A program made the position numbers and the translations under genes. From positions 62,001 through 126,000 of the forward strand of contig NZ_PYGD01000007.1 in the NCBI RefSeq assembly GCF_003014535.1: a stretch of 64,000 bases of DNA. Reading direction: 5' to 3'. The notes beneath the pieces were generated by a model, which was given only the letters and a program-made list of their open reading frames with translations, was not told where the DNA came from and did not search any database. Source of the DNA: Taibaiella chishuiensis. Lineage in GTDB: Bacteria; Bacteroidota; Bacteroidia; Chitinophagales; Chitinophagaceae. Positions 15,505-30,285 of the stretch are shown here, piece after piece (within the stretch, counting starts at the first letter, position 1; each line of letters starts with the position of its first letter).

Positions 15505-15535
15505 TTTGTTTTAAGCGTTAGATTAAATATGTTTG
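15505..15535 (+). promoter_or_regulatory. promoter of the hybrid kinase regulator
   Basis: TTTG at 15505-15508, exactly 19 bases, then TATGTTTG at 15528-15535: a perfect match to the Bacteroidota housekeeping promoter. The transcript would start near 15542, with a leader of about 70 bases in AT-rich DNA. Confidence 0.75.
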
Positions 15536-15610
15536 TTCAGCCGCCTTTGTAAGAAATAGAATTTTGTTGCCGCCTTGCTCAACCGACAACTATATTAATT
15601 TCTTAATTCG

Positions 15611-17614
15611 ATGCTAAAAAAAAATTCAATTGTTAACCGAGCGGAACAATCCGTAATTGCAGGTTGGGTTGTAAAATATAAGTGGCATTTCCTGTTTTGG
15701 ATTTGTTATTTTATTTATGCCTTTATTACAGACTCCCTGCTTTATGGTAAATATGTATACTTTTCTAAAGAACTCCTGTTTTTTTCGACGCATAACCTGT
15801 TCCTATTTTATGCCTTTCTTTATGGTTTGAACAAGTTTTCAAACGAATCTCCGCTTACCATTTTTCATAGCTCACTTCGTATTGTTATCGCAATCTCTTG
15901 CTTCTGGGCTATCAGGGTTGTACTCAACTTCAGGATTTATCCTATTATGGATGCAGCCCGGGGAATAGAAAAAGAAACAATAGTTAATTATCAATTTGTA
16001 ATTAATGGTTGTTTTTGGGTTACAGAGTATTTTGTAAAAGCTCTTGCTTATTTTTTTGTGATAAAGTATGTCAACAAGGAACGCCAGCACAGGAAGGTTC
16101 TTGAAGAGAAAATGGAACAGGAGCGTCAGCTGATTGAAAAACGTATTGAACAACAGCAAGCGGAGCAGCAACAAAAGGAATATGAACAGCGGGAAGCCAT
16201 GTTCATTAACCTGGTTCATGAAACCAAAACGCCCATTACCCTCATCAATAATTATATCGCTGATCACATCGAGCTGCACGGTAGTTCCGATGAGTTGGAG
16301 ATCGTCAAAAACAATGTCGGTAAGCTTAGCCGGGATGTTACCAATCTCTTTGACCTGGAGCGATTCCGGCATGGTGTGGAAATGTTCGATCACGATCAGC
16401 GGGTCGATTTTTCGGCACTGCTGCATACCGCCTGTGCGCAATTTGCGCTATACAGCCAGAAGAAAGATATCCGGCTCTGCGGCGATATCGGGGATGGGGT
16501 TATCATCGCTGCTGACCCGGTAGCTTTAACCCGGATCGTTAATAACCTGGTTGAAAACGCCATCAAATATTCAACGGCGGGTACAGAAATCGTTTTGACC
16601 CTTACAGCAACCGAGGACTGTGCCGTACTCAGGGTTGCCGATCAGGGGCCGGGGATCGATCCGGGGAATCTGGCGGATATCTTTACCCCTTATCACCTGC
16701 TTAATAAGTACAAGAAAAACGACCAGGGCATGGGGCTGGGACTACCGATGGTGAGCAATATCGTAGATAGCCTGGATGGTGAGCTCTCCATAAAGAACGG
16801 AGCGCAGCGCGGTACGGTGGTAACGGTTACCCTACCGATCGGGGCAGATGCGCCCCTGGCAGCAATAACCGGGCAGGAACCTGGTCTGGGCATGATCGAA
16901 GAACGGGAGCCTGTTGGCCGTAACCTCCTTGCTGAAGACGCCCCCCTTTTACTGGTTGTGGAAGATAATGCCGACCTGAACAGTTACCTGGTCCGCAAGT
17001 TAAGACAGCACTACAGGGTCCGTGCTGCAGCAAATGGCGCAGACGCGATCAGCCAGTTCAGGGAAGAAGTACCCGACCTGGTTATCAGCGATGTGATGAT
17101 GGACCATATGGACGGCTTTGCCTTTGCAGAAACCTTGCAGCGCACACCCGCATGGTCGCATGTCCCGGTCATATTTCTTACAGCGCGGGCAACGGAAGTG
17201 GATAAAATGCGGGGTCTGTCTTTAGGCGCAATCGATTATATCGTAAAGCCCTTTGCCGTGGAGGAGTTGTTGAAAAAAGCCGGCGCATTGCTCCGCTATA
17301 CCAACCGCCAGGAGCAGCGCCTGATCGAGGATTTGTACCATACTGCGAAGCAGATGAAACGCAAAGGCCATTACAGCCAACCTGACGAATTGCCCCTTGA
17401 GCCGGCAACCGGTGTGTTTGAAACCAAATGCCGCGATGCCGGCCTCACAAAAAGGGAAGTCGAGATCACCCGGCTTTTGATCGAAGGAAAGACCAATAAG
17501 TTTATTGCAGAAACGATCTTTATATCACCCCGGACCGTGGAGACCCATATCAGAAATGTTTATGAAAAGCTGCAGGTATCCAACAAGGTAGCATTGCTCA
17601 AACAACTGCAGTAG
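15611..17614 (+). CDS. one-piece sensor kinase / receiver / LuxR-type DNA-binding regulator
   Basis: This 667-residue protein joins all parts of a two-component pathway in one chain. Residues 1-165 carry about four hydrophobic helices with no large periplasmic domain. A coiled coil rich in Glu/Gln/Arg follows (about 155-195). The kinase has H203 in FINLVHETKTPITL, an N box NLVENAIKYS, DQGPGID and GMGLGLPM. The receiver begins LLVVEDNADLN (about 447) with the phospho-acceptor D494 (ISDVMMDHMDG) and Lys in DYIVKPF. The last 60 residues are a LuxR helix-turn-helix (LTKREVEITRLLIEGKTNK...SPRTVETHI). The first third is AT-rich compared with the rest. It lies directly upstream of the RiPP locus on the same strand, so it is the probable local regulator. 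Confidence 0.9.
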   Translation: MLKKNSIVNRAEQSVIAGWVVKYKWHFLFWICYFIYAFITDSLLYGKYVYFSKELLFFSTHNLFLFYAFLYGLNKFSNESPLTIFHSSLRIVIAISCFWAIRVVLNFRIYPIMDAARGIEKETIVNYQFVINGCFWVTEYFVKALAYFFVIKYVNKERQHRKVLEEKMEQERQLIEKRIEQQQAEQQQKEYEQREAMFINLVHETKTPITLINNYIADHIELHGSSDELEIVKNNVGKLSRDVTNLFDLERFRHGVEMFDHDQRVDFSALLHTACAQFALYSQKKDIRLCGDIGDGVIIAADPVALTRIVNNLVENAIKYSTAGTEIVLTLTATEDCAVLRVADQGPGIDPGNLADIFTPYHLLNKYKKNDQGMGLGLPMVSNIVDSLDGELSIKNGAQRGTVVTVTLPIGADAPLAAITGQEPGLGMIEEREPVGRNLLAEDAPLLLVVEDNADLNSYLVRKLRQHYRVRAAANGADAISQFREEVPDLVISDVMMDHMDGFAFAETLQRTPAWSHVPVIFLTARATEVDKMRGLSLGAIDYIVKPFAVEELLKKAGALLRYTNRQEQRLIEDLYHTAKQMKRKGHYSQPDELPLEPATGVFETKCRDAGLTKREVEITRLLIEGKTNKFIAETIFISPRTVETHIRNVYEKLQVSNKVALLKQLQ

Positions 17615-17645
17615 TATTTATTTCCCATTGAAATTCAGTCTTTTT

Positions 17646-17684
17646 TAGAGAAAATACGGGTAATTACGTAGCGAAAATACGGGT
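17646..17684 (+). promoter_or_regulatory. direct-repeat candidate operator
   Basis: TAG[A/C]GAAAATACGGGT occurs twice, at 17646-17661 and 17669-17684, with 15 of 16 bases identical and a period of 23 bp, about two helical turns. The pair sits 32 bases after the regulator stop codon and just upstream of the -33 box of the RiPP promoter, where an activator would bind. Assignment to the adjacent LuxR protein is inference. Confidence 0.6.
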
Positions 17685-17693
17685 GTTTTGGTA

Positions 17694-17724
17694 TTGTGTT
17701 TTGTTCCGCAGGCGGCTACATTTG
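17694..17724 (+). promoter_or_regulatory. probable promoter of the RiPP locus
   Basis: A weak -33 box (TTG at 17694-17696), 20-base spacer, and a perfect -7 box TACATTTG at 17717-17724. Alternative TTTG boxes at 17687 and 17700 have poor spacing (26 and 13). A weak -33 box fits an activated promoter. The start would be near 17730. Confidence 0.6.
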
Positions 17725-18073
17725 TCGGGTCATATGATCGTTACGCCAGGTGTGATTGGCGTAACGGGATTATCGAAACAGCATCACACCTGGTTCGACG
17801 ATCCGCGGGTAATAGCTATACCCGATGCCTGTACAAACCTTATCTCCCGGCAGTAGCTTGCGTCATCCTGGCATGGTGGCATGGAATATTTGCAATGAGC
17901 AAGGCGGCTATTCCTTACAGCGCAGCGGCGCAAGCGGCCGGTGGTGCGGGTGATACAGGCGACAAAAGGTATTAAGACACCCTACATGCGGGCGCAACGG
18001 CATTTCAGGTTGGCAACACCAGCCCTGCGACCTTGCATCGTAACAATCGTTAACTCAAAAAAAAGAACAAAAG
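17725..18073 (+). promoter_or_regulatory. long structured 5' leader of the precursor peptide gene
   Basis: There is no convincing gene in these 349 bases. Close to the predicted start, hairpin A pairs 17739-17747 (CGTTACGCC) with 17758-17766 (GGCGTAACG), a perfect 9-bp stem with a 10-base loop. The loop is itself complementary to a downstream stretch: 17746-17756 (CCAGGTGTGAT) pairs perfectly with 17783-17793 (ATCACACCTGG), 11 bp. Loop-to-downstream pairing of this kind can form an H-type pseudoknot or an alternative fold. A further small stem pairs 17806-17811 with 17819-17824. The leader may be a cis-regulatory RNA; no known riboswitch class was recognised. The rest of the leader shows nothing clear. 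Confidence 0.45.
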
Positions 18074-18274
18074 ATGAAAGTTCAAGCATTGAATTTCCCG
18101 GCAATTGAAGCGCTTCCTAAAAGCGGTATGCAAAAAATAAACGGCGGAGCAATGTCCCGTAAGGAAACACCCGCGGGTGAACATTATGGGCAGGCCTACG
18201 AATGTGACTCCGAATTGTACGATAATGGCGTGTACCAGAACACCACCTATACCTTCAAAAAGAGGGTAAACTAA
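18074..18274 (+). CDS. GG-leader RiPP precursor peptide (grasp-with-spasm type)
   Basis: A 66-residue peptide with a short leader (residues 1-25) ending in KINGG, the double-glycine motif seen in Bacteroidota peptide precursors, and a 41-residue candidate core from A26. The core holds acidic residues E31, E36, E43, D45, E47, D50 and potential partners S28, K30, T32, S46, T57, T58, T60, K62, K63. It also has one Cys (C44) and five Tyr. ATP-grasp maturases of the graspetide type join Asp/Glu side chains to Ser/Thr/Lys, so the composition is suitable. The ATG at 18074 follows an A/G-rich stretch. It lies upstream of the maturase genes on the same strand. Which residues are joined, and whether cleavage is after GG, is inference. 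Confidence 0.75.
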   Translation: MKVQALNFPAIEALPKSGMQKINGGAMSRKETPAGEHYGQAYECDSELYDNGVYQNTTYTFKKRVN

Positions 18275-18286
18275 AAGAGAACAAAA

Positions 18287-18321
18287 ATCGGTTTAAGGTA
18301 GCCATGCTGCCTTAAACCGAT
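18287..18321 (+). terminator. strong hairpin just after the precursor gene (attenuator or mRNA stabiliser)
   Basis: A 16-bp stem with a single G-U pair (18287-18302 with 18306-18321) and a 3-base loop, 12 bases after the precursor stop. No T run follows, so it is probably a partial terminator or 3'-end protector that lets the peptide be made in excess over the enzymes. Confidence 0.65.
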
Positions 18322-18356
18322 CCCTTAAAATGATCCTTTAAAATTGATTCCTTATA

Positions 18357-19465
18357 ATGACCGGACTCATCTTATTCGCGCTTCTTTTTGCAGGCAATAT
18401 TGCCTTTGCTACGGATCATAATATTAAAGCCTATCTGACATTGGTCAATGAAGCGGAGCTGCTTATTTGCAATGATAAATTAAAGGAAGCGGTACAACAT
18501 TATGACAAGGCCTTCTCATTGAAAGCCTCGCCTGTTGGGAAAGATTTATTAAACGCCATATTATGCACTTATCAATTAGATGATACCGGAAGATTTAAAT
18601 CGTATGCTACCACTTTGCTGAAAAATGGTGCGTTTTCCAGTATCAGTAATTTCAGAAAATATATTGCGAAAGTTCCTGTTGGTCCGGACAAAGACAAGTA
18701 CGGAAAGATATGGGATGATCTCAGCCGTAAAATTATACCTGGATTAGATACGGCCTACCGCAACCAGCTGATCAGGCTCGTGCAAGCTGACCAGGATGTC
18801 AGGCATTTTTTTGTAGGAAAGTACTACGGCGACTATAACAACGGCGGGAAAGATTCATTTAACGTTTTTGATTCGTTGAATGTAATCAAACTAAAAAAAC
18901 TATTCGATACAAAAGGGTTCCTACGGAGGATAAAATCGGCTATGACCATAATTTTCCGGGCAACCCACCTTTATACGAATTAATTCTGCGGCACGACAGG
19001 GCCTGGACGAACAGGAAAACGCTGGATTCCATTTTCTATTTCGCAGTCGTCAACGGCGATTTCCCTGCACTGACCTATGGTTATTGGAAAGACCAGAGTT
19101 ATGGTAATACGCACGACACCATCGCTTCCTATCAACAAGAATCTTATTCCCGATTTGGCACGGATGATCTTATTGTAATAGATGAGGTGTTGTATGTCGA
19201 TCGCTTTAGCGAGTTAGATAAAAGCAAGATCAATAGGGCAAGAGCAGGTATAGCTATGAACTCGCTAGAAGAGGAAGTCGTAAAAGCCAGATTTCAAATG
19301 AAACACAAATACTACCGTTTCCTTGATGGAACAACTTTTCTTCAATGGGACGGCATGTCTCCAGAAGATCTGCAAAAGGTGAAAGACGAGTCTTATACTG
19401 ATAATGATATCTCGTCATTTAATACCATAGCAAATAAAAAATGTGCGTACGGGCTGCAACACTAA
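18357..19465 (+). pseudogene. frameshifted secreted protein, paralogue of the next gene
   Basis: The reading frame 18357-18983 encodes a signal peptide (MTGLILFALLFAGNIAFAT) and about 190 residues closely matching the downstream paralogue: ELLICN, LLKNGAFS, RLVQADQDVRHFF, then LKKLFDTKGF. At about 18918 the frame is lost; where the paralogue has TTTCC this copy has TTCC, a one-base deletion in a T run. Reading on in the other frame restores the match (PTEDKIGYDHNFPGNPP, LRHDRAWTNRKTLDSIF, YGYWKDQSY, WDGMSPE) to a stop at 19465. Restored length would be about 369 residues. It is either a recent pseudogene, a phase-variable site or a sequencing error. Confidence 0.85.
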
Positions 19466-19612
19466 ATCAGACCTTATGATTATTATCCATGCGCTGGATA
19501 AAGGATCCATGGCGTTGCGGGTAACTGAGCAGATTTCGTGTGCTTCGGCCCTGATAGCATAGGAAGGTTTAAAGTACGAAGAGCACTACAGCTCTTTATT
19601 ATCCTATTCTTT

Positions 19613-20710
19613 ATGAAAAAACTTATTCTTTTGTTCAGCCTTGTGCTCATCATGGCAAACCGATCGGCCGCCGGCGTGGCTATGTATTCGGGCCTTATTC
19701 ATGAAGCAGAATTGCTTATTTGCATGGAAAAGCCGGGATTGGCTTTGGAGCGCTTTAAGCGGGCCTTTTCCCTAGAAACACCATTAGGCAAAGACCTGCT
19801 CAATGCGCTGATCTGCGCTTACCAGGCTGGCGATACGGTTGCCTTTGCAACCATGGCAACCGCACTCCTTAAAAACGGGGCTTTTAGTGATGGCTGCGAC
19901 TTTTATCGGTTTTTTGATAAAATAGACGGGCCCGAAAATAAAGAGTCGTATAAACAGATTTGGAAACGGCTGGTACAGGTAACACCAGTGCACATCGACC
20001 TTTCATACAGGCAAGCAGTGAAACAGCTCGTCCAGGCCGACCAGGATGTACGACATTACTTTATGGATAAACAAACCGGGAATTATAATGCTGTAGGAAG
20101 GGACTCACTTAACACTTTCGATTCCCTGAATACATTAAGGCTAAAGCGGCTTTTTGAGACCAGGGGCTTTCCAACAGAAGAAAAAATTGGTTATGATTAC
20201 AGTTTTCCCGGCAACCCTGCTATCTATGAGATAATCATTCGTCATGACCGCTCCTGGACCAACAGGAAAGTATTAGATTCGTTTTTTTACCAGGCGACAC
20301 GCGAAGGAAAGCTTTCCCCTACACATTACGGCTATTGGAAAGATCAGTCTTACTGGGCATTCGACGATTCCGCTTCTTCCTATCAGCAAACTCCATTCAG
20401 TCATTACGGAACAGACGCACTTGTTGTTATTAACGACACACTATACATTCATAAATACAATGGAACAGAAAAAGATAGGATCAATGCTGCAAGAAAGGAA
20501 ATCTACGCGGATGCTCTCGACGAAATGGCAATGAAAGCAAATTACCAGTTTACGCATAAATATTTTAGAATCATTGATGGCACTTATGGTGTTTGGGACG
20601 GAATGCCGGATGAAGAGACCCGGAAGATCAGGCAGGAAGCCTACACAACAACTGATTTAAAAGCTTTACGGTATCAACTCGCTAAAAAATACGGATTAAA
20701 ACACGATTAA
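19613..20710 (+). CDS. secreted protein of unknown function (DUF6624-like), RiPP locus
   Basis: A 365-residue protein with a signal peptide (MKKLILLFSLVLIMANRSAAG). An N-terminal helical, TPR-like part (AELLICMEKPGLALERFKRAFSL...LLKNGAFS) is followed by a C-terminal region from about residue 135: QLVQADQDVRHYF, FDSLNTLRLKRLFETRGFP, EIIIRHDRSWTNRKVL, THYGYWKDQ, SHYGTDAL, RINAARKEIY. The order DQxxR, GFP, xxHD, YGT and final INxxR resembles DUF6624, but this needs a profile search. The ATG at 19613 is preferred because the signal peptide starts there. It ends 14 bases before gwsG, so co-transcription is likely. It may sense, bind or protect against the peptide; the function is unknown. Confidence 0.75.
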   Translation: MKKLILLFSLVLIMANRSAAGVAMYSGLIHEAELLICMEKPGLALERFKRAFSLETPLGKDLLNALICAYQAGDTVAFATMATALLKNGAFSDGCDFYRFFDKIDGPENKESYKQIWKRLVQVTPVHIDLSYRQAVKQLVQADQDVRHYFMDKQTGNYNAVGRDSLNTFDSLNTLRLKRLFETRGFPTEEKIGYDYSFPGNPAIYEIIIRHDRSWTNRKVLDSFFYQATREGKLSPTHYGYWKDQSYWAFDDSASSYQQTPFSHYGTDALVVINDTLYIHKYNGTEKDRINAARKEIYADALDEMAMKANYQFTHKYFRIIDGTYGVWDGMPDEETRKIRQEAYTTTDLKALRYQLAKKYGLKHD

Positions 20711-20724
20711 CCTCGCGACCTGTT

Positions 20725-21714
20725 ATGATAGCTATTCAATCACACAGTGACGAAGCGAGCACCGATGATGTCATAGACTGGCTACTTTATCTCGGCGCGG
20801 ATCGTATTAAGCGGCTGAACGGTAATGTATCGCTCAATAAGGAAACATTGAGGATCAATAACGATTCGGGACACAGCAGTCTTTTCGGCGAGCTTCAGGC
20901 TTATTGGTACCGGCGGGGCTACTTTACGCTCGACATACCCGATACCGGCAATCCATATCCGGCGGTAACCACCTATTTCGAAAAAGAGTATGAATATTAT
21001 ACCAATGGTACAGCGCATTTCCTGTCAAAACAACACAGCATTAATTCATTTTGCGATAATCATACCAACAAAATAACCAACCTGGTCGAAGCGGCTCGTG
21101 CAGGCCTATTGATCCCGGATACTTTAATCACAGCCGATGTAAAGGAAATAAAAGCCTTTGCCGCTTTATATCCCAGGATCATTACCAAGGCCATTGCCCA
21201 TAATCGCATAGCGGCAACGATAGATAGCGATACCTATATCAACATTGCTGTCGACACCGCTATTTTTGACCGGGATATGATCGATGCGCTTTCAGCGGAG
21301 CAGCACTTTTTGCCCGCCGTTTTCCAGGAATACCTGGAGAAAAAGTATGAGTTGCGTATCTTCTATTTTCATGGCCGGTTGTACAGCATGGCTATATTTT
21401 CACAGTTAAATGAAGCGACCCGGATCGACTTCCGGAAACATGACCGGGAAACCCCCAACCGTTGTGTCCCTTATCAGCTGCCGGATGACCTGGAAAATAA
21501 ATTGCGGTCGTTTATGCAACGTATAGCCATGAATAGCGGCTCCATTGATATGGTGGTAACGCCTTCCGATGACTATGTATTTTTAGAAGTCAACCCGGTA
21601 GGACAACTGCAATGGTTGTCGGGAAATTGTAACTATCCCGTTGAACGGGAAATTGCTAAATTTTTATTGCATGATCAGGAGACCGGAAACCGAACGACAG
21701 AAAATCATCGATGA
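20725..21714 (+). CDS. gwsG: grasp-with-spasm system ATP-grasp peptide maturase
   Basis: An ATP-grasp ligase of 329 residues, expected to activate Asp/Glu side chains of the precursor as acyl phosphates and close ester or amide links. An N-terminal pre-grasp region contains NNDSGHSSLFGELQAYWYRRG. The ATP-grasp core has RIITKAIAHN (ATP-binding Lys), FQEYLEKKYELRIFYFHGRLY, and the metal-binding end SIDMVVTPSDDYVFLEVNPVGQ, where the D...E.N residues bind magnesium. The LEVNPxGQ ending is typical of MvdD/GwsG-type maturases. It follows the secreted protein by 14 bases and overlaps the next small gene. Name assigned from motif and context, not a search. Confidence 0.85.
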   Translation: MIAIQSHSDEASTDDVIDWLLYLGADRIKRLNGNVSLNKETLRINNDSGHSSLFGELQAYWYRRGYFTLDIPDTGNPYPAVTTYFEKEYEYYTNGTAHFLSKQHSINSFCDNHTNKITNLVEAARAGLLIPDTLITADVKEIKAFAALYPRIITKAIAHNRIAATIDSDTYINIAVDTAIFDRDMIDALSAEQHFLPAVFQEYLEKKYELRIFYFHGRLYSMAIFSQLNEATRIDFRKHDRETPNRCVPYQLPDDLENKLRSFMQRIAMNSGSIDMVVTPSDDYVFLEVNPVGQLQWLSGNCNYPVEREIAKFLLHDQETGNRTTENHR

Positions 21715-21898
21715 ATTCCTGGATTGGCTGGATGCCCATCGCCACAACTTACCCGTAAACGCGTCGACCTGGACCTTTCAACTGGTCGAAAAACGAACCG
21801 TTGCGGAGCAGGAGCTTGTTACATTAGGAAAGTACAATGCTCAAAAAGCCCGTTCCATCCCGTTTTACAAACCCTATACCAAGATTTTTAAATTCTGA
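21671..21898 (+). CDS. 75-residue protein between gwsG and gwsS
   Basis: An open frame starting with ATG inside the last 44 bases of gwsG and stopping one base before the gwsS ATG, so the three would be translationally coupled. The product is basic, with a helical first part (RQKIIDEFLDWLDAHRHNLP) and a Lys/Tyr/Phe-rich end (SIPFYKPYTKIFKF). There is no signal peptide, GG leader or Cys. No family recognised. It could be a recognition or adaptor protein for the maturases, or a second peptide substrate. The tight packing supports it being real. Confidence 0.6.
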   Translation: MIRRPETERQKIIDEFLDWLDAHRHNLPVNASTWTFQLVEKRTVAEQELVTLGKYNAQKARSIPFYKPYTKIFKF

Positions 21899-21899
21899 C

Positions 21900-22967
21900 A
21901 TGGACTATTTGTTGTTGTACAGTAATTGCGTCCTGGTTAAAGGGGCGAACCGGGCTACCATCTGCGATCTGCAAAAAGGTGATATTTACCCTGTCCCTAA
22001 ATTGCTTGCAGACCTGTTCCAGGAGGATCGCGCCCTGGACCTTGCACTGTTAAAAGAGCAGGTACAAGATGAAACTGCCTCCTGGCTGCTGCAGCTTATC
22101 GATACTTTAGTCGCAAGTCAGCTGGCATTTTATTGTAACCGGCAGGAACGGAAGCGTTTTCCTGCATTACACACCGAATGGCTTTTCCCCGCCCATGTAT
22201 CGCATTGTATTCTGGACTCTGCAACGGGCCGGTTAGATTATTTTACGGAGTCCTTTATCGCACAGCTGGGTAAGCTGTGCTGCAATTTCCTGCAACTCCG
22301 TTTCTTTGGTACTCCCGCCATAACCCATTTGGAGCATATATTAAGACTGATAAAAGACGCGCAGATTAAGTCGGTAGAGATCCTCGTGCCCTGGAATGCG
22401 GCATACGAAAATGCGCATACTTATGCGAAATGGATCAACGAATATAAAAAGATAAGCAGCCTCATATGCTGGGGCGCACCCTCGACCCATGTGGTAATAC
22501 CCGGTGTGGAAGCTATGGGATACCTCCTGTATACCGGCGAGCAGATCAATACCGCAACACATTGCGGTATCATCAACCAGGGGCTGTTTTCAACAAATAT
22601 AACCACCTATACGGAATCGCTTCATTTCAATAGCTGCTTAAACAGGAAGATCAGTATAGATGTACAGGGGAATATCAAAAACTGTCCTTCGATGACCGAT
22701 AGCTTTGGGCATATAACAGACACTTCCCTTTCCGAAGCGCTCAACAAACCCGGCTTTAAAAGGTATTGGCATATTACCAAAGACCAGATCGCTGTTTGCA
22801 AAGATTGCGAGTTCCGCCATGTATGTACCGATTGCCGGGCCTACCTGGAAGATCCGGAAGATGCCTGCAGCAAGCCGTTAAAATGTGGATACGATCCCTA
22901 TACGGGTGAATGGGAGGAATGGAGCCAACATCCCATGAAGCAAAAAGCGATCGCGTATTATTTTTAA
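21900..22967 (+). CDS. gwsS: grasp-with-spasm system SPASM-domain peptide maturase
   Basis: A 355-residue protein with a C-terminal SPASM-type cysteine cluster: C246, C262 (in GNIKNC), C300, C303, C309, C312, C323 and C329, suited to auxiliary Fe-S clusters. The middle region (FLQLRFFGTPAITHLEHILRLI, ILVPWNA) fits a TIM-barrel-like scaffold as in radical SAM enzymes. No CxxxCxxC motif for the SAM-cleaving 4Fe-4S cluster is present anywhere, so ordinary radical SAM chemistry looks unlikely. The ATG at 21900 begins right after the stop of the 75-residue gene. It probably works with GwsG on the precursor. Confidence 0.83.
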   Translation: MDYLLLYSNCVLVKGANRATICDLQKGDIYPVPKLLADLFQEDRALDLALLKEQVQDETASWLLQLIDTLVASQLAFYCNRQERKRFPALHTEWLFPAHVSHCILDSATGRLDYFTESFIAQLGKLCCNFLQLRFFGTPAITHLEHILRLIKDAQIKSVEILVPWNAAYENAHTYAKWINEYKKISSLICWGAPSTHVVIPGVEAMGYLLYTGEQINTATHCGIINQGLFSTNITTYTESLHFNSCLNRKISIDVQGNIKNCPSMTDSFGHITDTSLSEALNKPGFKRYWHITKDQIAVCKDCEFRHVCTDCRAYLEDPEDACSKPLKCGYDPYTGEWEEWSQHPMKQKAIAYYF

Positions 22968-23160
22968 GCAGGACCAGTTTCTTTCCCCAAAAACATCATT
23001 CATCATGCGTTTGTGGTTACCTTAGCCGGCGGCAAATACCTGGGCGAAGGCAACGCCGCAGCCACCCTGCGGTGTATAAAGGCACACCTGCCGCTAGACA
23101 CCTGCCGCTAGACATCGGACCGGCAAGGCCGGGCACAGCAGATCGGTCCGGATAAAATCT
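22968..23160 (+). other. open but interrupted coding remnant after gwsS
   Basis: In the same frame as gwsS, codons after its stop stay open to a TAG at 23109 and read KNIIHHAFVVTLAGGKYLG, then EGNAAATLRCIKAHLP. After the TAG the frame is open again into the next gene at 23199. The text is protein-like but has no start codon or ribosome-binding site I can support. It may be the eroded N-terminal part of a longer gene. A 14-bp tandem duplication lies just before the stop. Confidence 0.4.
23086..23113 (+). repeat. perfect 14-bp tandem duplication
   Basis: ACCTGCCGCTAGAC occurs twice head-to-tail (23086-23099 and 23100-23113). The second copy supplies the in-frame TAG at 23109. A unit of 14 is not a multiple of three, so the event shifted the frame of whatever was read through it. 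Confidence 0.85.
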
Positions 23161-23198
23161 TTGATGAATACAATGAAAAATCAACTCCCCCCTGCCTT

Positions 23199-23849
23199 AT
23201 GATGACCCACCAGGATTTAGAAAGACAACTGAGCGACCGGTGTGAAAAGCTGGACCTTAAACAACAGGCCTTCGATGGATTGGCAGCCCTATTGGCCGAT
23301 GAACAAAACAGGGTAGAAGATGTTTTTGCCGGCTTTGACCCCAGGGACATAAAGCCGGTGTTTGAAGGCTTTAAATACGTGATTGATCAGCCACACCGGC
23401 CCGCGGTGATCAGGACAAGAATCAGGCTTTATGGCCCGCATGGGACAGACAGTTTTCCACCTATCGGGTATTATGAACTTGAAACAGATTTTGAGGGTAA
23501 TATACTCGATGATTTTTTCGTGATGGAAAAGGAGCGATACGTCGACGACCTTGCCATCATCAGCCATTTCCGGGATATGAACCAGGTACTTCCGCCCGGG
23601 TACCTTAAAAGAAATTATATCCAATACGAATATGTGGCCTATGTTTCGCTGATCGGGACCCTGTTTGCCAGTAAGCAGTTTAATGCAGCCTACCGGTTTG
23701 TACAAAGGGCCCGGGTTTACCTGCAACATACCGATCCTGCAAAGTTCGACCAGCAATACCTGCAAAAAAGCCGTCACTTTATAAAAATGGTAGCGGATTA
23801 CCTGGAAAAAAACAACCTGGCAGACACCGCATGGCCGGACAAAAGATAA
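23199..23849 (+). CDS. protein of unknown function at the end of the RiPP island
   Basis: A 216-residue product, acidic at the N-terminus (LERQLSDRCEKLD). Its middle has FKYVIDQPHRPAVIRTRIRLYGPHG and IGYYELETDFEGNILDDFFVME, and its end is helical (FVQRARVYLQHTDPAKFDQQYL). No signal peptide or membrane segment. No known family recognised. The frame is open upstream to 23112, so the true start is uncertain; ATG at 23199 or 23202 is the earliest available. It is the last rightward gene before a shared terminator and may belong to the RiPP locus, for instance in self-protection, which is only a guess. Confidence 0.6.
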   Translation: MMTHQDLERQLSDRCEKLDLKQQAFDGLAALLADEQNRVEDVFAGFDPRDIKPVFEGFKYVIDQPHRPAVIRTRIRLYGPHGTDSFPPIGYYELETDFEGNILDDFFVMEKERYVDDLAIISHFRDMNQVLPPGYLKRNYIQYEYVAYVSLIGTLFASKQFNAAYRFVQRARVYLQHTDPAKFDQQYLQKSRHFIKMVADYLEKNNLADTAWPDKR

Positions 23850-23913: not shown

Positions 23914-24936
23914 TCAGGCCGCTTTTTCTTCTTCTTTTTTCTCTGGCACCGCCAGCGATATGATCACCGACAACAGCAATACCCCGCCTACAATCGCCAG
24001 CGACAGCGGCGAAGAGATGTGTACAAAAGGGGAAATGACCATTTTTACACCGATAAAGGTGAGGATAACAGCCAGGCCATATTTCAGGAAGCGGAACATA
24101 TGGATAAAGTTGGCCAGCAGGAAATACAGGGCCCTTAAACCCAGGATAGCAAAGATATTGGAGGTATAAAGAATAAACGGATCGTCGGATATGGCGAAGA
24201 TGGCCGGGATGGAATCGACGGCAAACAACAGGTCGGTAAACTCGATTACGCCTACTACCACGAGCAGCGGTGTCGCCATTTTGATCCCGTTCTCGATCGT
24301 AAAGAATTTATCGCCATCGAAATTGCGGCTTACTTTAAAGAAGCGGTGCACGATACGCGCGCCTGGACTTTTGGTAAAGTCTTTCTCCTCGTCGTCGTCC
24401 TCGCCGGCAAATGCAGATTTGATACCGGCATAGATCAGGAACAGGCCAAAGAGCAGTAAGACCACATTGATCCGCATACTCATACCAAACAGGGTCATGG
24501 TAGGCAGGTAAGTAACATTGATAAGGCCTACCCCGGCAAAGATAAAGATGGCCCGCATGACCAGGGCGCCTATAATACCCCAGAACAGCACTTTATGGTG
24601 CACCTCCTTGGGCACATTAAAGAATCCGAATACCAGGATGAATACAAAGAGGTTGTCGACCGACAGGGCTTTCTCGATCCAGTAGGCGGATTGGAACTGG
24701 GTAAATTTCTCGAAAGCGATCTCGGGCGAATCGGCTCGGAATACCAGGTAGATCACGCCGCTGAAGAGCATGGAGAGCGAGATCCAAACGAGTGACCAGA
24801 CCAGCGCTTCCTTATTGGAAACCGCATGACTTTTTTTATTGAACACGCCGAGATCGAGCAACAACATGATTAATACCACTACGGCAAATCCGGCGATAAT
24901 ACCGGGATGGCTAAGCATCGAGACCTTTTTATCCAT
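23914..24936 (-). CDS. terC: TerC/Alx family integral membrane protein
   Basis: A 340-residue inner-membrane protein with about eight to nine helices, beginning with GIIAGFAVVVLIMLLLDLGVF. The family motif is EKALSVDNLFVFILVFGFF (conserved Asp/Asn in the first membrane core), repeated later as VGVIEFTDLLFAVDSIPAIFAIS. TerC/Alx proteins handle metal ions (Mn2+ export has been shown for Alx) and belong to tellurium-resistance systems. A charged cytoplasmic loop (GEDDDEEKDF) lies near residue 175. It is the most distal gene of the leftward Ter cluster. Confidence 0.92.
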   Translation of the reverse strand: MDKKVSMLSHPGIIAGFAVVVLIMLLLDLGVFNKKSHAVSNKEALVWSLVWISLSMLFSGVIYLVFRADSPEIAFEKFTQFQSAYWIEKALSVDNLFVFILVFGFFNVPKEVHHKVLFWGIIGALVMRAIFIFAGVGLINVTYLPTMTLFGMSMRINVVLLLFGLFLIYAGIKSAFAGEDDDEEKDFTKSPGARIVHRFFKVSRNFDGDKFFTIENGIKMATPLLVVVGVIEFTDLLFAVDSIPAIFAISDDPFILYTSNIFAILGLRALYFLLANFIHMFRFLKYGLAVILTFIGVKMVISPFVHISSPLSLAIVGGVLLLSVIISLAVPEKKEEEKAA

Positions 24937-24969
24937 TTTTGTTTTTTATTAATTTGATTTATAGGTTAC

Positions 24970-26478
24970 TTATTTATTCGCCATGGTGACGATCACTACC
25001 CTGCCCCCTTCCTCTTTGGAAAGCAGCAGTTTTTTACCATCGGTCAGCTCGACCATACTGCCCAAAGGTATTTCTTTATCTTCTGTAATGTCCTTTAAGG
25101 AATCTAATTTTTGATTGACCAGCACCCAGCGGCCCTGGTGGAAGGTAAAATAGCCCACCGGCACCTTTTGTTCCTGCGTCAGCTTCTCATTACGGATCAC
25201 ATTCCGGTTGGCATGCCACTGGAAAAGATATTGATTGCTGTAGACCATCAACCGCTGGTTCTCGGGCTTCCATACCGATTCGCGGAACTGGTAGTAGAGG
25301 TCCAGCACCGGCAGGGTACCTTTATGCGGCGTGCCGCAAAACGGGCAAGCCGGCCTGTTGGTATTATCGAACACATACCACTTCTGGTCGCAGGCCGCAT
25401 TACTGCAGGGCTGCATCAGGTCGGTCGTTTTCAGCAGGGCATCTTCCCATTCATTGGCCGTGGGCCGTTGCATCGGGTTATGCAGCCCGTCTATAAAAGC
25501 ACGGTCAAACAAGGCTTTCAGGTAAGGTCCCGTAATGGTATAGGGCACTTTAGTCACATCGGCCCAGGGCAATTCTTTCGGATTAAGCTGGTTGAGTTTC
25601 GGCCTGTTGCTTTTATCGGTCGGGTGTTCGATAAACAAGGCCCGTTCTCCCATCGCCAGCAGGTCGTCTTTTTCGGTATCCAGGTCGTGTATCTTGCCGC
25701 CTTTAAGCGGGTGCCGGTACAGGAGGTACATATAGATCATTACTGCCAGGGCATGCAGATCGGTAAGCCTGTTGGGCAGTTTGCGGTTGGGATCCTTTAC
25801 ATCGAGGTGCTTGGACGATAGTACTTCGGGGGCGATAAAATCGGCGGTGCCGATCACATCGGGCGGGAACAAACCCGGTACTACCAGGCCATCGATATCG
25901 ATAATGGCGGCCGTGCGGCTTACGGGATCTACCAGCACATTTTTATACGACAGGTCGGAATGCGCCAGGCCCGCGGCATGCAGCCGTTTTACCCCCCGGG
26001 CGATATTCACGCAGACCTGGAAATAGCTGAGCCAGTTGCCCAGCTCCGATTCGTCGAGGCGCAGGGGAAATTGCTTATTCCGGAACTTGGGCGAGGCAAA
26101 CCATTTGCCTTCTTTTTCCTTACCCCGGATCAGGTCGCTGGTGGCATAACCTTTCCGGAAAAAAAAGTTCTGGTTATAGGTCGGGACTACGATCCCGATC
26201 TTACGGTCCAGCTCCACCACATCGGTAGGCCAGGAGTACAGGTCTTTATAATAATTGCCGCCTTCTTTGTTGAAGAAACTGTCGTAGTACTGCGTCACAA
26301 TCTTGATCAGCCGTTCGCGCGAGTTAAAGTCCTGTACATCGCGGTAAAAAGCGACCACATACGAACGGTCGGGGCTGAAGTAAACATCCTTCATGCCGCC
26401 GCGCATAGGCTCGCCATTGTCTACGTACTGGTAGGTACGGCCTTTGGTTATAATAGAACCTGCTGTTCTTGTAATCAT
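24970..26478 (-). CDS. Ter-associated protein kinase with zinc ribbon
   Basis: This 502-residue protein carries an N-terminal kinase-like fold. The catalytic loop is HSDLSYKNVLVD (near residue 165, in place of HRDxKxxN), the metal loop is DIDG in place of DFG, and GTADFIAPEVL is the activation-segment end. A zinc ribbon follows at about 375-405 (CSNAACDQKW...CPFCG), then a beta-rich C-terminus of about 100 residues. Together with the PP2C phosphatase and the TerY protein upstream it forms the TerY-P triad, a phosphorylation switch in Ter systems. ATG at 26478 is taken over upstream TTG/GTG codons. Confidence 0.82.
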   Translation of the reverse strand: MITRTAGSIITKGRTYQYVDNGEPMRGGMKDVYFSPDRSYVVAFYRDVQDFNSRERLIKIVTQYYDSFFNKEGGNYYKDLYSWPTDVVELDRKIGIVVPTYNQNFFFRKGYATSDLIRGKEKEGKWFASPKFRNKQFPLRLDESELGNWLSYFQVCVNIARGVKRLHAAGLAHSDLSYKNVLVDPVSRTAAIIDIDGLVVPGLFPPDVIGTADFIAPEVLSSKHLDVKDPNRKLPNRLTDLHALAVMIYMYLLYRHPLKGGKIHDLDTEKDDLLAMGERALFIEHPTDKSNRPKLNQLNPKELPWADVTKVPYTITGPYLKALFDRAFIDGLHNPMQRPTANEWEDALLKTTDLMQPCSNAACDQKWYVFDNTNRPACPFCGTPHKGTLPVLDLYYQFRESVWKPENQRLMVYSNQYLFQWHANRNVIRNEKLTQEQKVPVGYFTFHQGRWVLVNQKLDSLKDITEDKEIPLGSMVELTDGKKLLLSKEEGGRVVIVTMANK

Positions 26479-26530
26479 AGGTACGAATATTGTCACCTGC
26501 AACGGTATACGGGCTGCGGTGTATATCTTT

Positions 26531-27934
26531 TTAGAATATGATGACCAGGGTACGGTCGTCGTGGTTACCAGGGCTCCAGAAGTCCATCCATACCGACAGT
26601 TCGGTAGCGATATCCGGGTTATCCGCGTCCAGGTTTACCCTTGCCAGGTCGGCATTATCGCCTTCCAGGTCACGCAGGAAACCATCCCATTTGCTGACCT
26701 GCTCGAGGTTGGCTTCTACTTCGAATTTCGGGTCGTAGATGCCGTCGGTCATCAGCATCAATGCGGTAAAGTCTTCGACAAACTTAAAGCCGAACCGGCC
26801 CGACAGGTCGTCCCGGAAGATCTCCGGCATCGTGATAAATCTTGTTCCACCGCCAAACTCGCCTACATCCAGCTTATTCATGAGGTGCACAGCCGACCGG
26901 TCTTTGCTGATCAGCCCAATGGGGCAATCGCCTACGCCGAAGGTCAGCACGGCATAACCGGATTTATACTTTTTAACCAGGGCAAAAATAAGTGTTGCAT
27001 GAAAGTCGCGGATCCCGGCGCCCTGTTCTTTGGCAAAGGCCTCGATCTCCTTGTAGGCCTGCTGCGCAGCGCCACCCAGCGCCTGGTAAATGTGCAGGCT
27101 TATCTTCTTTTGCAGGTCGGTGCCGGTATTTGTGTTATACGCTTCGAGCAAGGTGTCGAGTTCGGCAAAGTCGCCGCCTTCGGCCTTATTGCCCAGGTAT
27201 TGCACCACGGTATCGCAGGCGATACGGGAACCCTGCCGGGAAAACTTTGCACTGCCTGCGCCATCCGATACGGCCACTACGCTCCAGCCGCTTGTTGCAA
27301 AATGGGCAAAGGCAAAATCATCGTCGCGGAAGGCGCCGGTATTGGCATGGGAGCGCCCGCGCTTGGAGGCCGCTACGATATGCCGGTCGCCCAAAGGCGC
27401 CGAAACTGCCGTCTCGTCGGCCTTCCAGAAAGGATCTGTATTATCGGAAGGCGTAGTTTTCCACAACGACTTCGGATCAGGATTAATGATCAGCGGGATC
27501 AGTTTTTCATTCGGTACCGCATCCTCCGCTTCGCCGGTTACTTTAAATTTCAACTTCAGTTTAAAATCACCGTTCTGTTCGGGTATGCCCCGGATCTGTT
27601 GTGTTTCGGGATCGTAGGCAAGCCCGATCGCTTCCAGGCCCTCCAGTTCGAGCAGCACGAGGTCCTGCCAACCCCAGCCGGTTGTATCCAGCTGTGCGCC
27701 GTATACCTTGCCCACCGTGCCATTGGGTATCATTACCTGCTGTCGCTTTATATCGTTGATCCGGTTGTTTAATGACCATGCATCCATAAGTAACTGTTGC
27801 TTGCGCAGGATGTCGGTAGCGGCTTCAAGATAAGATGCATTGCTGCAAAATTCCTCAAAAAGCGCGGCCTGGTGCGGCGCCACGGGCATCTGCTTGACTT
27901 CGAAAAGCTTTTCTATATATAATTTCGGATCCAT
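26531..27934 (-). CDS. PP2C-family Ser/Thr protein phosphatase of the TerY-P triad
   Basis: This 467-residue protein starts with a helical region (1-70) and an Ig-like putative domain (about 85-160, with AIGLAYDPETQQIRGIPEQNGDF, the He_PIG pattern). A PP2C domain follows at about 200-467: VVAVSDGAGSAKFSRQGSRIA with metal-binding Asp, then VLTFGVGDCPIGLI and ALMLMTDGIYDP. It would reverse phosphorylation by the kinase gene 52 bases downstream. It lies 7 bases after the TerY gene. Confidence 0.85.
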   Translation of the reverse strand: MDPKLYIEKLFEVKQMPVAPHQAALFEEFCSNASYLEAATDILRKQQLLMDAWSLNNRINDIKRQQVMIPNGTVGKVYGAQLDTTGWGWQDLVLLELEGLEAIGLAYDPETQQIRGIPEQNGDFKLKLKFKVTGEAEDAVPNEKLIPLIINPDPKSLWKTTPSDNTDPFWKADETAVSAPLGDRHIVAASKRGRSHANTGAFRDDDFAFAHFATSGWSVVAVSDGAGSAKFSRQGSRIACDTVVQYLGNKAEGGDFAELDTLLEAYNTNTGTDLQKKISLHIYQALGGAAQQAYKEIEAFAKEQGAGIRDFHATLIFALVKKYKSGYAVLTFGVGDCPIGLISKDRSAVHLMNKLDVGEFGGGTRFITMPEIFRDDLSGRFGFKFVEDFTALMLMTDGIYDPKFEVEANLEQVSKWDGFLRDLEGDNADLARVNLDADNPDIATELSVWMDFWSPGNHDDRTLVIIF

Positions 27935-27941
27935 ATTGTTG

Positions 27942-28994
27942 TTACCCCTGTGTCCTGTTTACATCAAAACCACCTTCGCCGATACCGTAAGTACCCTGTG
28001 TACCGCACCAGGGGCAAGTACTTACCTGTTCTGCACCGATACAGTGTATCTTGCCGCAACTGCACATCGCAAAACCGATCTGGTTACCACAACAAGGACA
28101 GGTAGGACTGCCGATCAGTTCGTCGCTATTGATCCTGGCGCTGCCGGCGCTCTCGTCGGAAAGCTCGTAATAAACCTGGTCTACCTCGAAAGCCCCGACC
28201 AGCCTGTAGGCCAGCGTATCGAACTCCATACCGTCGAAACCCGAAGGGTTAAGGCTTTTGCGGTATTTCATCAGGTAAGGCCGTTTACTGTTCTGGCATT
28301 TGGCGGCCAGCACCACGTAGTTATTATCGGTATAGTGGTTGCCGTAGGCAGGCTCTACCGGGTCTATTTTGCTGAGGGTCGAGTCATCCAGTTTGGCCAG
28401 TTCAAAGCCCGATCCGTTCTGGTCTACCCTTTCGCTGGAGGTCTTGATGGAATCGGTTACCCATTTAAAGAACTGTTTATAGGCAGCCGCATCGGTATTG
28501 TGAAACAGCAATACATAATCCGTAAGCTCGCGCAGCACGCGGGTATCGGTTTCGCTGCCAAAAGAAACGGCAACCATATTGGCCGTACGCTGCCAGTTCT
28601 GTTTCCATTCGGTAATGGCCTGTCGCGTATCGTCGGTTGGCACACCGTCGGTAAACAAAAAAACGATGGGCTTCCAGTCGCCTTTCTGCTCGTAGGTGGT
28701 CTTCACGATATTACGCCGGAGCTCATACATCAGGTGGCCCAGGCCCTTGCTCAGGGCCGTTCCGCCACCAATGGGGAACCGCGGCGGATAAAAGTTGATG
28801 ATCTCCTGCAGGGGCACCAGCGTTTTGGCCTGTCCTGCAAATACGATAATCGATACCCATACGGTCTCTATCGCATAAGGGTCTGTTTTAAGCGCCTGTA
28901 TAATGGTAGCCAGGCCTTCTTCGACCTGTCGGATCGGTTCGCCGACCATGGATTCGGAAACATCGATCAGGAAATAAATCGGAAGTCTTCTCAT
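27942..28994 (-). CDS. TerY-type von Willebrand A protein with C-terminal metal-binding domain
   Basis: This 350-residue protein has a vWA domain at about 1-200 with MIDAS motif DVSES (residues 8-12), GGGTALSKGL and FLFTDGVPTDD. A C-terminal TerY-C-like cysteine-rich part follows, CPCCGNQIGFAMCSCGKIHC then CPWCGTQG, able to bind zinc. TerY is the central sensor or scaffold of the TerY-P triad. The stop is 7 bases before the PP2C gene. The other two vWA proteins in this cluster lack the Cys-rich tail. Confidence 0.87.
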   Translation of the reverse strand: MRRLPIYFLIDVSESMVGEPIRQVEEGLATIIQALKTDPYAIETVWVSIIVFAGQAKTLVPLQEIINFYPPRFPIGGGTALSKGLGHLMYELRRNIVKTTYEQKGDWKPIVFLFTDGVPTDDTRQAITEWKQNWQRTANMVAVSFGSETDTRVLRELTDYVLLFHNTDAAAYKQFFKWVTDSIKTSSERVDQNGSGFELAKLDDSTLSKIDPVEPAYGNHYTDNNYVVLAAKCQNSKRPYLMKYRKSLNPSGFDGMEFDTLAYRLVGAFEVDQVYYELSDESAGSARINSDELIGSPTCPCCGNQIGFAMCSCGKIHCIGAEQVSTCPWCGTQGTYGIGEGGFDVNRTQG

Positions 28995-28995
28995 G

Positions 28996-29625
28996 TTATC
29001 CCATATTTACAGAGTGCAGGTACACCGTACCCGGACCCGTGATTTTAAGCATACTAAAGCCTTCTCCACCCAACAGGTTTTTACCCGAAAAGTGAGCATC
29101 CATGCGGGATTGCATATCGGCGTTCATAGCGATAAAACTTTTTTCATCCACATAAATAGTTTCGCCCGGCTTCAGGTCGAGGTTAACGGGCGAACCCAGC
29201 ACATCGAGGAATACGGTGCAAAAGCCGGTTATCTTTTGCAGCACGGGGCCATTGCCACCGATAAACGATGCGATGTTTAACTTGAAATCGATATCTACCT
29301 TATCGGAGGAGGCCACGTAATAGCCGGCCCTGCAGATAATGCCGTTGTTCAATAATTTGAGGTTCACGGGCAACAGGCCTACCTTTCCGCCCAGCATCAG
29401 CTTTTTAGGACTGTTGTGTCGGTTCTGCAATTCCACCTGGAACATGCTCTCGCCCGACAGCTTGCGCTTGATCAGGCCCGCCACACCTTTATCGAGCACG
29501 TTAAGCGTCGATACGATCCCTTCTTCATAATAGATCAATGCGCCCTTTTCACAATAGAAACGTTCCTGGGGCTCCAGCTCCACCTGCAGGCTTTTATAGT
29601 CATGCCCGATTAGTTTTACATTCAT
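28996..29625 (-). CDS. AIM24 / TIGR00266 family protein
   Basis: A 209-residue all-beta protein matching the AIM24 family by KLIGHDYKSLQVELEPQERFYCEKGALIYYEEG, LQKITGFCTVFLDVLGSPVNLDLKPGETIYVDEKSFIAM and the ending ITGPGTVYLHS. Family function is unclear; members occur near Ter and stress genes. It is packed against its neighbours, 1 base before the TerY gene and 12 bases after the preceding vWA gene. Confidence 0.8.
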   Translation of the reverse strand: MNVKLIGHDYKSLQVELEPQERFYCEKGALIYYEEGIVSTLNVLDKGVAGLIKRKLSGESMFQVELQNRHNSPKKLMLGGKVGLLPVNLKLLNNGIICRAGYYVASSDKVDIDFKLNIASFIGGNGPVLQKITGFCTVFLDVLGSPVNLDLKPGETIYVDEKSFIAMNADMQSRMDAHFSGKNLLGGEGFSMLKITGPGTVYLHSVNMG

Positions 29626-29637
29626 ATCCGGCTGCCG

Positions 29638-30273
29638 TTAAATAACAAGATGTACTTCGGTGGGCGGCGGCGGCAAGGCCACGCTTTCCACGGTGCCCAT
29701 ACTTTTGTTGCCTTGTTCGATCGTATCGGATACCCATTTAAAGAACTGGCGCAACGTATTGGTATCGGCAGTATCGAGATGTACTACCGTGCCGGTAAGT
29801 TCCTTGAGCATCGAATCGTCGGCCAGCTGGCCTGCGGCACAGCCTACCATAGCGCCGAAGTGCAACGATTTTATTTTAGGTATCATCTCGCGGTACAACT
29901 GTATATCCGAAGGTTTGCCATCGGTAAAGAGGAAGAACAGTGGCCGCCAGTCGCCTTTTTGCGTATCGGTTCCTTTTCTTACCTCGGCTGTTACTTTCTG
30001 GTAAATAAGTTCGAGCCCTTTACCGGTATTGGTAGGGCCGCTTTGCGGACAGGTGATCTCGGGCAACTGGAAGTTGACCAGCTCAGTAAGCGGCACCAGC
30101 TCTTTCACTTCACGATCGAAGGTCACGATACTGATCCAGAGCGAATCCAGGGCTTGCGCATCGCTGCGTAAAGTATTGATCATACCGCTCAGGGCATTGT
30201 TCAAAGCCTGTATCGGCTCGCCGAACATAGATCCTGAAGTATCCAGTAAAAAATAAACAGGTAATCGTCTCAT
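29638..30273 (-). CDS. short von Willebrand A protein (TerY-like, no zinc tail), copy 2
   Basis: A 211-residue single-domain vWA protein: LLDTSGSMFGEPIQAL (MIDAS DxSxS), SGPTNTGKGLELI and FLFTDGKPSD. A short tail ends PPPPTEVHLVI. Similar to the vWA protein at 30286-30924, so a tandem duplication. These likely bind Mg2+-dependent partners within the Ter complex. Confidence 0.85.
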   Translation of the reverse strand: MRRLPVYFLLDTSGSMFGEPIQALNNALSGMINTLRSDAQALDSLWISIVTFDREVKELVPLTELVNFQLPEITCPQSGPTNTGKGLELIYQKVTAEVRKGTDTQKGDWRPLFFLFTDGKPSDIQLYREMIPKIKSLHFGAMVGCAAGQLADDSMLKELTGTVVHLDTADTNTLRQFFKWVSDTIEQGNKSMGTVESVALPPPPTEVHLVI

Positions 30274-30285
30274 GTTGTAAAAGGC

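Follow-up and report, generated by a model that had tools for sequence, protein, structure and literature searches.

A grasp-with-spasm locus of Taibaiella chishuiensis: proposed roles for its SPASM protein, a small LPL protein and a neighbouring kinase

What do an ATP-grasp protein and a SPASM-type protein, encoded close together, do to the short peptide encoded upstream of them? We addressed this question at a locus in a stretch of the Taibaiella chishuiensis genome of 64,000 nucleotides (assembly GCF_003014535.1, contig NZ_PYGD01000007.1, positions 62,001 to 126,000), here called the window, whose own numbering is used throughout. An earlier note, made from the letters without database searches, had read the genes as a grasp-with-spasm (GwS) island for a ribosomally synthesised and post-translationally modified peptide (RiPP), cross-linked and under the control of an adjacent kinase-LuxR regulator. 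We found that the locus is almost certainly a GwS locus. The explanation that we favour for the whole, and regard as fairly probable, is a GwS graspetide locus in which the SPASM protein GwsS holds the precursor, a small LPL-family protein helps, and the adjacent kinase controls the locus. New here are a corrected view of GwsS, the addition of the LPL gene, and a link at genus level between the kinase and graspetide loci.

The identification rests on the two enzymes. GwsG matched the NCBI model TIGR04192 with 247.4 bits (curated cut-off 230) and carries LEVNPVGQ, a form of the LEVNPxGQ motif that the note had picked out. GwsS, about 190 bases downstream of gwsG, matched TIGR04193 with 318.7 bits (curated cut-off 175), and the order precursor, gwsG, gwsS recurs in sister loci. 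These results bear out the earlier assignment, and the other parts it had listed were also found: the 66-residue peptide with a leader ending in KINGG, the SPASM-type protein in a rightward array, and the one-chain sensor, receiver and LuxR protein at its flank. The genes run rightward in the order kinase-receiver-LuxR, precursor, two exported paralogues, gwsG, a 75-amino-acid LPL gene and gwsS. The LPL gene, between gwsG and gwsS, was overlooked in the earlier reading. The GwS locus itself extends from 18074 to 22967, and its features and those of the adjoining kinase are the following.

15611-17614, plus strand: kinase-receiver-LuxR gene, 667 amino acids; Pfam HATPase_c (302-410), Response_reg (448-556) and GerE (612-662), all above the Pfam cut-offs
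15665-16111, plus strand: N-terminal sensor domain of the kinase, with four hydrophobic stretches recognised by eye
18074-18274, plus strand: precursor peptide, 66 amino acids; leader 1-25 ending in KINGG, core 26-66
18357-19465, plus strand: first DUF6624-like exported protein, with a frameshift near 18,920, its frames read apart
19613-20710, plus strand: second DUF6624-like exported protein, intact, 365 amino acids
20725-21714, plus strand: gwsG, ATP-grasp graspetide synthetase, 329 amino acids; TIGR04192 match, LEVNPVGQ
21671-21898, plus strand: LPL-family small protein, 75 amino acids, overlapping the end of gwsG; 'LPVNASTW' and a C-terminal 'FYKPYTK'
21900-22967, plus strand: gwsS, with 21900 its likely start; TIGR04193 match
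Within gwsS, from the model and fold comparison: a predicted RRE-like domain (RiPP recognition element), residues ~1-85; a predicted radical-SAM-type (S-adenosylmethionine) barrel without CxxxCxxC, ~93-245; a SPASM domain, ~246-340

Six GwsG and six GwsS matches above the cut-offs form six pairs in the T. chishuiensis genome. GwsS was found above its cut-off in 12 of 196 genomes, this one included, and this genome holds the most. We collected 93 distinct GwsS loci, the window's among them, each with a gwsG match upstream; they come from 99 sequences, of which L122 (no GwsS), L114 (too short) and four duplicates were dropped, and some of the 93 GwsS are partial (e.g. L065 and L112). The 87 rows used for GwsG omit six translations that stayed short; 12 of odd length were re-read, and eight of these changed. 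The counts given below for LPL (86 of 93) and its overlaps, for the exported proteins, and for the leader profile and core signature predate this re-reading.

In its accessible text, the survey of Makarova et al. 2022 (PMC8939145) describes 190 such loci as 'branch 5' graspetides of Bacteroidetes, with a SPASM protein, varied Gly-Gly (GG) precursors and exported cluster-23 proteins. The window's locus resembles branch 5, as described there, in its ATP-grasp enzyme with a TIGR04193 SPASM protein, its GG leader, its LPL gene before the SPASM gene and its exported protein. The available part of Carter et al. 2026 (PMC13097080) reports that group 14 graspetides always occur with a SPASM protein, and we infer that this is the same group. 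No member of group 14 is characterised according to that part, its partner-dependent examples being rosaritide (group 21) and corallotide (group 15). We found no characterised product of the GwS class in the open-access literature, including the accessible part of PMC9576775, nor the term 'grasp-with-spasm' itself in that literature. The window's locus is a further example of an already classified, chemically undescribed peptide class.

GwsG is a homologue of the microviridin and chryseoviridin ligases MdnB, MdnC and CdnC. Among solved structures, it matched MdnC (5ig9) at E 3.6e-31, and also the microviridin-type ligases 7m4s and 5ig8 and CdnC (7mgv). The window's GwsG keeps the family-conserved residues. 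GwS systems differ from those of microviridin and chryseoviridin in three respects: the precursors detected here lack a PFFARFL-type leader, a SPASM partner is present, and GwsG has Q in place of E in the NPxGQ motif. This Q is present in 86 of 87 GwsG, whereas both microviridin-type enzymes of the same genome have E there. Those two enzymes belong to a microviridin/chryseoviridin-type locus (L122:8514-10914, minus strand), with an MvdD-like ligase (429.9 bits) and an MvdC-like ligase (374.7 bits), both under the NCBI cut-offs, and a precursor with the leader PFFAHFLEDQ and three K(Y/V)PSD repeats. It adjoins a 1052-amino-acid protein that matches TIGR03891 (thiopeptide-type bacteriocin biosynthesis) in its C-terminal part.

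The family suggests that the GwS product is cross-linked. Using ATP, GwsG would activate an Asp or Glu side chain of the core and join it to Thr or Ser (ester) or to Lys (amide). The likeliest course is that GwsG installs omega-ester or amide links while GwsS holds the precursor and LPL assists.

That the precursor is no chance open reading frame (ORF) is shown by another locus of this genome (L119), where a 66-amino-acid peptide with a nearly identical leader and a matching core pattern is encoded upstream of gwsG. The earlier note had proposed running family profiles on the precursor as well as the enzymes; the peptide matched no model in NCBIfam or Pfam. The unmodified core of 41 residues that follows KINGG has a computed monoisotopic mass of 4763.17. 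In the accessible account of branch 5, a family match is usually absent, with 8 known precursor clusters against 79 further ones (PMC8939145). A GG peptide was found upstream of gwsG in all six loci of the genome, four via a leader profile and two (L117 and L118) by eye. Over the 93 loci, the leader profile detected 41 precursors in 34 loci, and none of the 41, the window's included, has a PFFARFL-type leader motif. The cores share a pattern, approximately [T/S]-x-[AG]-G ... [YWF]-x-x-D-x(3-8)-[DN]-G, that recurs in different genera, as in ETPAGEHYGQAYECDSELYDNG (window), ETSAGVLNGMEYECDSALYDDG (L119) and GTPGGTFQGMEYSSDVFIDKNG (L069, Winogradskyella). Among small ORFs upstream of gwsG, this signature was present in 20 of 583 on the forward strand (from 19 of 93 loci) and in none of 735 reverse ones. 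Thr32 and Asp45 are singled out by the shared signature as the predicted key residues and the most conserved candidate link pair. Thr32 lies ahead of Asp45, matching microviridins, plesiocin and thuringinins, in which the nucleophile comes before the acid (PMC7823629, accessible text). The predicted mass loss of the core is 18 Da for each link, with Thr32/Asp45 as the first site.

The accessible text of PMC8939145 calls the branch 5 SPASM protein a radical SAM enzyme. We found instead that the SAM-binding motif CxxxCxxC is absent from the barrel in all 93 GwsS. It is missing altogether from 92, and the sole match (L108) lies within the SPASM part. Each of the seven SPASM cysteines (C246, C262, C300, C303, C309, C312 and C329) is present in 90-92 of the 93. 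Pfam SPASM was found in 64 of 80 members, and the Pfam family Radical_SAM was not among the matches listed for GwsS members (25 of 46 families).

We modelled GwsS from 80 sequences (predicted local distance difference test, pLDDT, 94.5; predicted template modelling score, pTM, 0.88) and compared the model with known structures using VIA-align. Nearly whole-length matches were obtained with CteB 5wgg (Z 11.5, root-mean-square deviation (rmsd) 6.3, 270 residues aligned) and TigE 8vpo (Z 11.2, rmsd 7.0, 306 aligned), and further matches with SuiB (Z 11.4, rmsd 4.9, 216 aligned) and PqqE (Z 10.9, rmsd 5.1, 194 aligned). Residues 2-81 were placed on the RRE protein TbiB1 5v1v (Z 8.3, rmsd 3.0, 78 of 88 aligned), and the N-terminus on TruD 4bs9 (Z 7.5). 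CteB, SuiB and TigE are radical-SAM/SPASM maturases that we take to carry an N-terminal RRE; the GwsS model appears to share their domain order and fold, and differs in the CxxxCxxC missing from its barrels. Searching PDB sequences with a profile of the GwsS alignment yielded just two weak, unrelated matches. We conclude that GwsS is very probably not a radical-SAM enzyme. On our reading of the model, it would be a radical-SAM relative by fold in which the SAM cluster is gone while leader binding and SPASM are retained. A role as precursor holder is the one we incline to by a small measure. GwsS would then grip the KINGG leader through its own RRE-like domain and act as a carrier or scaffold, with an iron-sulphur SPASM domain kept on a barrel without a SAM cluster. 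The label 'SPASM radical enzyme plus ATP-grasp' thereby becomes specific predictions, namely that GwsS binds the leader without cleaving SAM and that GwsG needs LPL.

We turn next to LPL. Iterated hidden Markov model searches between gwsG and gwsS found LPL in 86 of 93 loci, and the other seven have an LPL candidate at the same place (E 3.7e-14 to 0.012). The accessible text of PMC8939145 calls other small proteins at this place unrelated, whereas an LPL-type candidate was present here in 93 of 93 loci. Judging by place and motif, the window's LPL would belong to the published family. In the consensus, a variable N-terminus is followed by 'LP(L/V/I/F)(N/T/F)(F/Y)(Q/R/H)' and, at the C-terminal end, by 'F-Y/H-K-P-I-S-K'. 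No NCBIfam or Pfam family was matched by more than one of 22 LPL members, and none by the window's. Makarova et al. tentatively favour a PqqD-like role, and in one sentence of the accessible text raise the possibility that LPL acts with the ATP-grasp enzyme, its motif recalling a leader motif absent from the precursors (PMC8939145).

LPL as a PqqD-like chaperone for GwsS, unrelated to GwsG, is the rival that survives best, and we still consider it doubtful. According to the same text, LPL occurs in almost all branch 5 loci, and its gene invariably comes immediately before that of the SPASM protein (PMC8939145). Our own genome-wide search of 395 genomes of the phylum, in which the best 15 or fewer candidates per genome were scored, agrees: all 7 matches among those scored, in five genomes, lie directly upstream of a GwsS match. 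None of the 7 sits in a long frame that would indicate a fusion. The genome-wide profile was insensitive: it recovered three of the six T. chishuiensis loci, and of the 15 genomes in which GwsS was matched it detected LPL in five. In the 93 loci LPL was sought between gwsG and gwsS only. The near-invariant C-terminal Lys of the KPISK motif may also need a partner. The case for a PqqD-like LPL is weakened by three observations: GwsS appears, by predicted fold, to have its own RRE-like (PqqD-type) domain at ~1-85; LPL overlaps or abuts gwsG about as much as gwsS; and its LP motif looks like an ATP-grasp leader helix that is missing from the 41 detected precursors.

This last likeness bears on the reading that we prefer, a role for LPL beside GwsG. 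The LPL motif 'LPxxF(Q/R)F' resembles the microviridin leader helix PFFARFL, which binds MdnC via Glu191, Asp192 and Asn195 and works also with the leader in trans (PMC7823629, accessible text). A regular expression for the LP motif, written after viewing the LPL alignment, matched 42 of 86 LPL, where 4.3 would be expected and the highest count over 500 shuffles was 12; it matched none of the 41 precursors. Scored against PFFARFLE, the LPL set (56 non-redundant peptides) stood at z 6.6 above shuffled peptides. Against a leader in trans stands the rank of the true order, 38th among 840 orders of the PFFARFLE reference (56th when all 75 peptides are used), so that some of the signal is accounted for by general amphipathic spacing. 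An LPL-GwsS joined-protein alignment, in which LPL-only rows were misplaced, was discarded. That LPL helps GwsG is a serious possibility, which we put somewhat short of probable; LPL would dock with GwsG and/or GwsS, most likely helping to switch on GwsG. More tentative is a split-leader system. In it, the ligase-activating helix would now be a separate LPL gene acting in trans, the RRE of GwsS, a dead radical-SAM enzyme, would recognise the precursor leader, and KPISK would tie the ligase to GwsS, giving a three-protein machine with interchangeable precursors. Should LPL prove to be a leader in trans, free cores could be treated with graspetide enzymes of this class, given a separate activator.

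The conserved cysteines of GwsS raise a second rival, that GwsS is an active iron-sulphur enzyme of an unusual type, carrying out redox or thiol chemistry on a core Cys or forming thioethers. All the SPASM ligands are conserved, as are C222 (91 of 93) and C128 (84 of 93); the window core contains a single Cys, which the L119 paralogue shares, and Cys occurs in 23 of 41 detected cores. Set against this are the lack of CxxxCxxC in all 93 barrels and the conservation of just C128 and C222 between ~90 and 245. Detected cores are also Cys-free in 12 of 34 loci, which makes a thioether or other cysteine reaction unlikely as a general role. We regard an active GwsS as improbable.

Several points count against the account favoured here, in which GwsS holds the precursor and LPL helps. 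Foldseek gave no match for the GwsS model against PDB at E <= 0.001; the radical-SAM and RRE likeness comes from VIA-align of Foldseek candidates, and the whole-length ones have high rmsd. Conserved C10, C128 and C222, outside the SPASM set, are unexplained by a mere scaffold role. LPL position 5 showed no charge covariation with the GwsG residues that correspond to MdnC Glu191, Asp192 and their neighbours (of five site choices, four gave Fisher p = 1 and the fifth 0.26); the raw means of net acidity were 2.1 in 14 loci with LPL Arg or Lys vs 1.4 in 56 others. On the precursor side, the leader profile has a limited reach, and the core signature, which misses most loci, was written from the same sequences it was counted in. 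One secreted gene of the window's locus is broken.

We then considered the regulator, whose control of the locus the earlier note had proposed. Close copies of the whole kinase-receiver-LuxR protein number three in the genome (itself and two at 46 and 42% identity), and each adjoins a GwS locus. The next-best kinase match is 28% (86.8 bits) in the same genome and 27% (101.5 bits) in sister genomes. The sensor domain had five matches in four genomes of the genus group, and 5 of 5 lie within ~5 kb of a graspetide synthetase gene. Four are in T. chishuiensis, the fourth beside the microviridin-type locus, and one is in G001 beside a GwS locus; there was no match in G002 or G003, both with graspetide genes. 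The chance of four of four such neighbours is ~4e-8 (seven graspetide loci, 6 kb either side, ~1.4% of the genome). Over the 196 genomes, with the best 20 or fewer candidates per genome scored, two further weak matches were found among those scored, neither beside a graspetide gene, so the link is one of genus level. The kinase is a true neighbour of graspetide loci within the genus. This linkage lends independent support to the earlier claim. Three of the genome's six GwS loci lack the kinase, and control by it is suggested by position: the adjacent kinase-LuxR protein would control the locus. Its presence beside several graspetide loci of the genus offers a handle on the timing of peptide production.

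A third rival takes the peptide as a secreted signal sensed by the adjacent kinase (autoinduction), not a protease inhibitor or toxin. The five sensor domains near synthetase genes of two types speak for this. The kinase is present at only three of the six GwS loci, however, its sensor domain is practically confined to the genus, and it could equally sense envelope stress or a target. We consider autoinduction unlikely.

The earlier note's two paralogous secreted proteins are both present, the second intact and the first split. The second half of 18357-19465 is readable in another frame, and an intact counterpart exists in L119; the frameshift may be real or a draft-assembly error. That the locus is decaying and makes nothing, as this broken gene might suggest, is very improbable, since the second copy is intact, the frameshift may come from the draft assembly, and the precursor, gwsG, LPL and gwsS are open with family-conserved residues kept. 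The exported family is present in 66 of 93 GwS loci. D143, Q144, G185, H211 and R294 are invariant or nearly so in 34 aligned members. PF20329 (DUF6624) was matched by 11 of 42 aligned relatives (best 4.7e-21), with the window's intact member unmatched; DUF6624 is frequent in other graspetide groups (PMC13097080, available part). The intact protein was modelled as mostly helical (pLDDT 88.7), with no Foldseek match at E <= 0.001 and a best VIA-align Z of 6.7, under the level that counts. It would act outside the cytoplasm, possibly in protection or maturation.

Two C39 peptidase matches were found in the genome, one of them strong. The strong one belongs to a locus with an HlyD-type adaptor and a C39-peptidase ATP-binding cassette transporter (L161:4243-7828, minus strand), ~14 kb from the microviridin-type locus and away from the GwS loci. 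Because the sole strong C39 peptidase is located elsewhere, export and leader removal of the GwS peptide probably occur in trans. The L161 transporter is a possible shared exporter for the GG-leader peptides of this genome.

Downstream of gwsS, an ORF at 23199-23849 (216 amino acids) had no NCBIfam or Pfam family match, and tblastn found no relative in the remaining 92 GwS loci; it is not counted as part of the locus. Beyond it, on the minus strand (23914-30924), lies a ter-like cluster of TerC, a kinase-like protein, a PP2C phosphatase, TerY-C, AIM24 and two VWA proteins. Two sister genomes share the synteny of this cluster as far as TerC, where the match stops, so the GwS locus sits at a synteny break; no empty site could be demonstrated in this comparison. 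Elsewhere, GwsS copies with internal stops or shortened frames were seen at G117:C28, G067:C2, G334:C14, G278:C1, L065 and L112, which reflect either locus decay or assembly errors.

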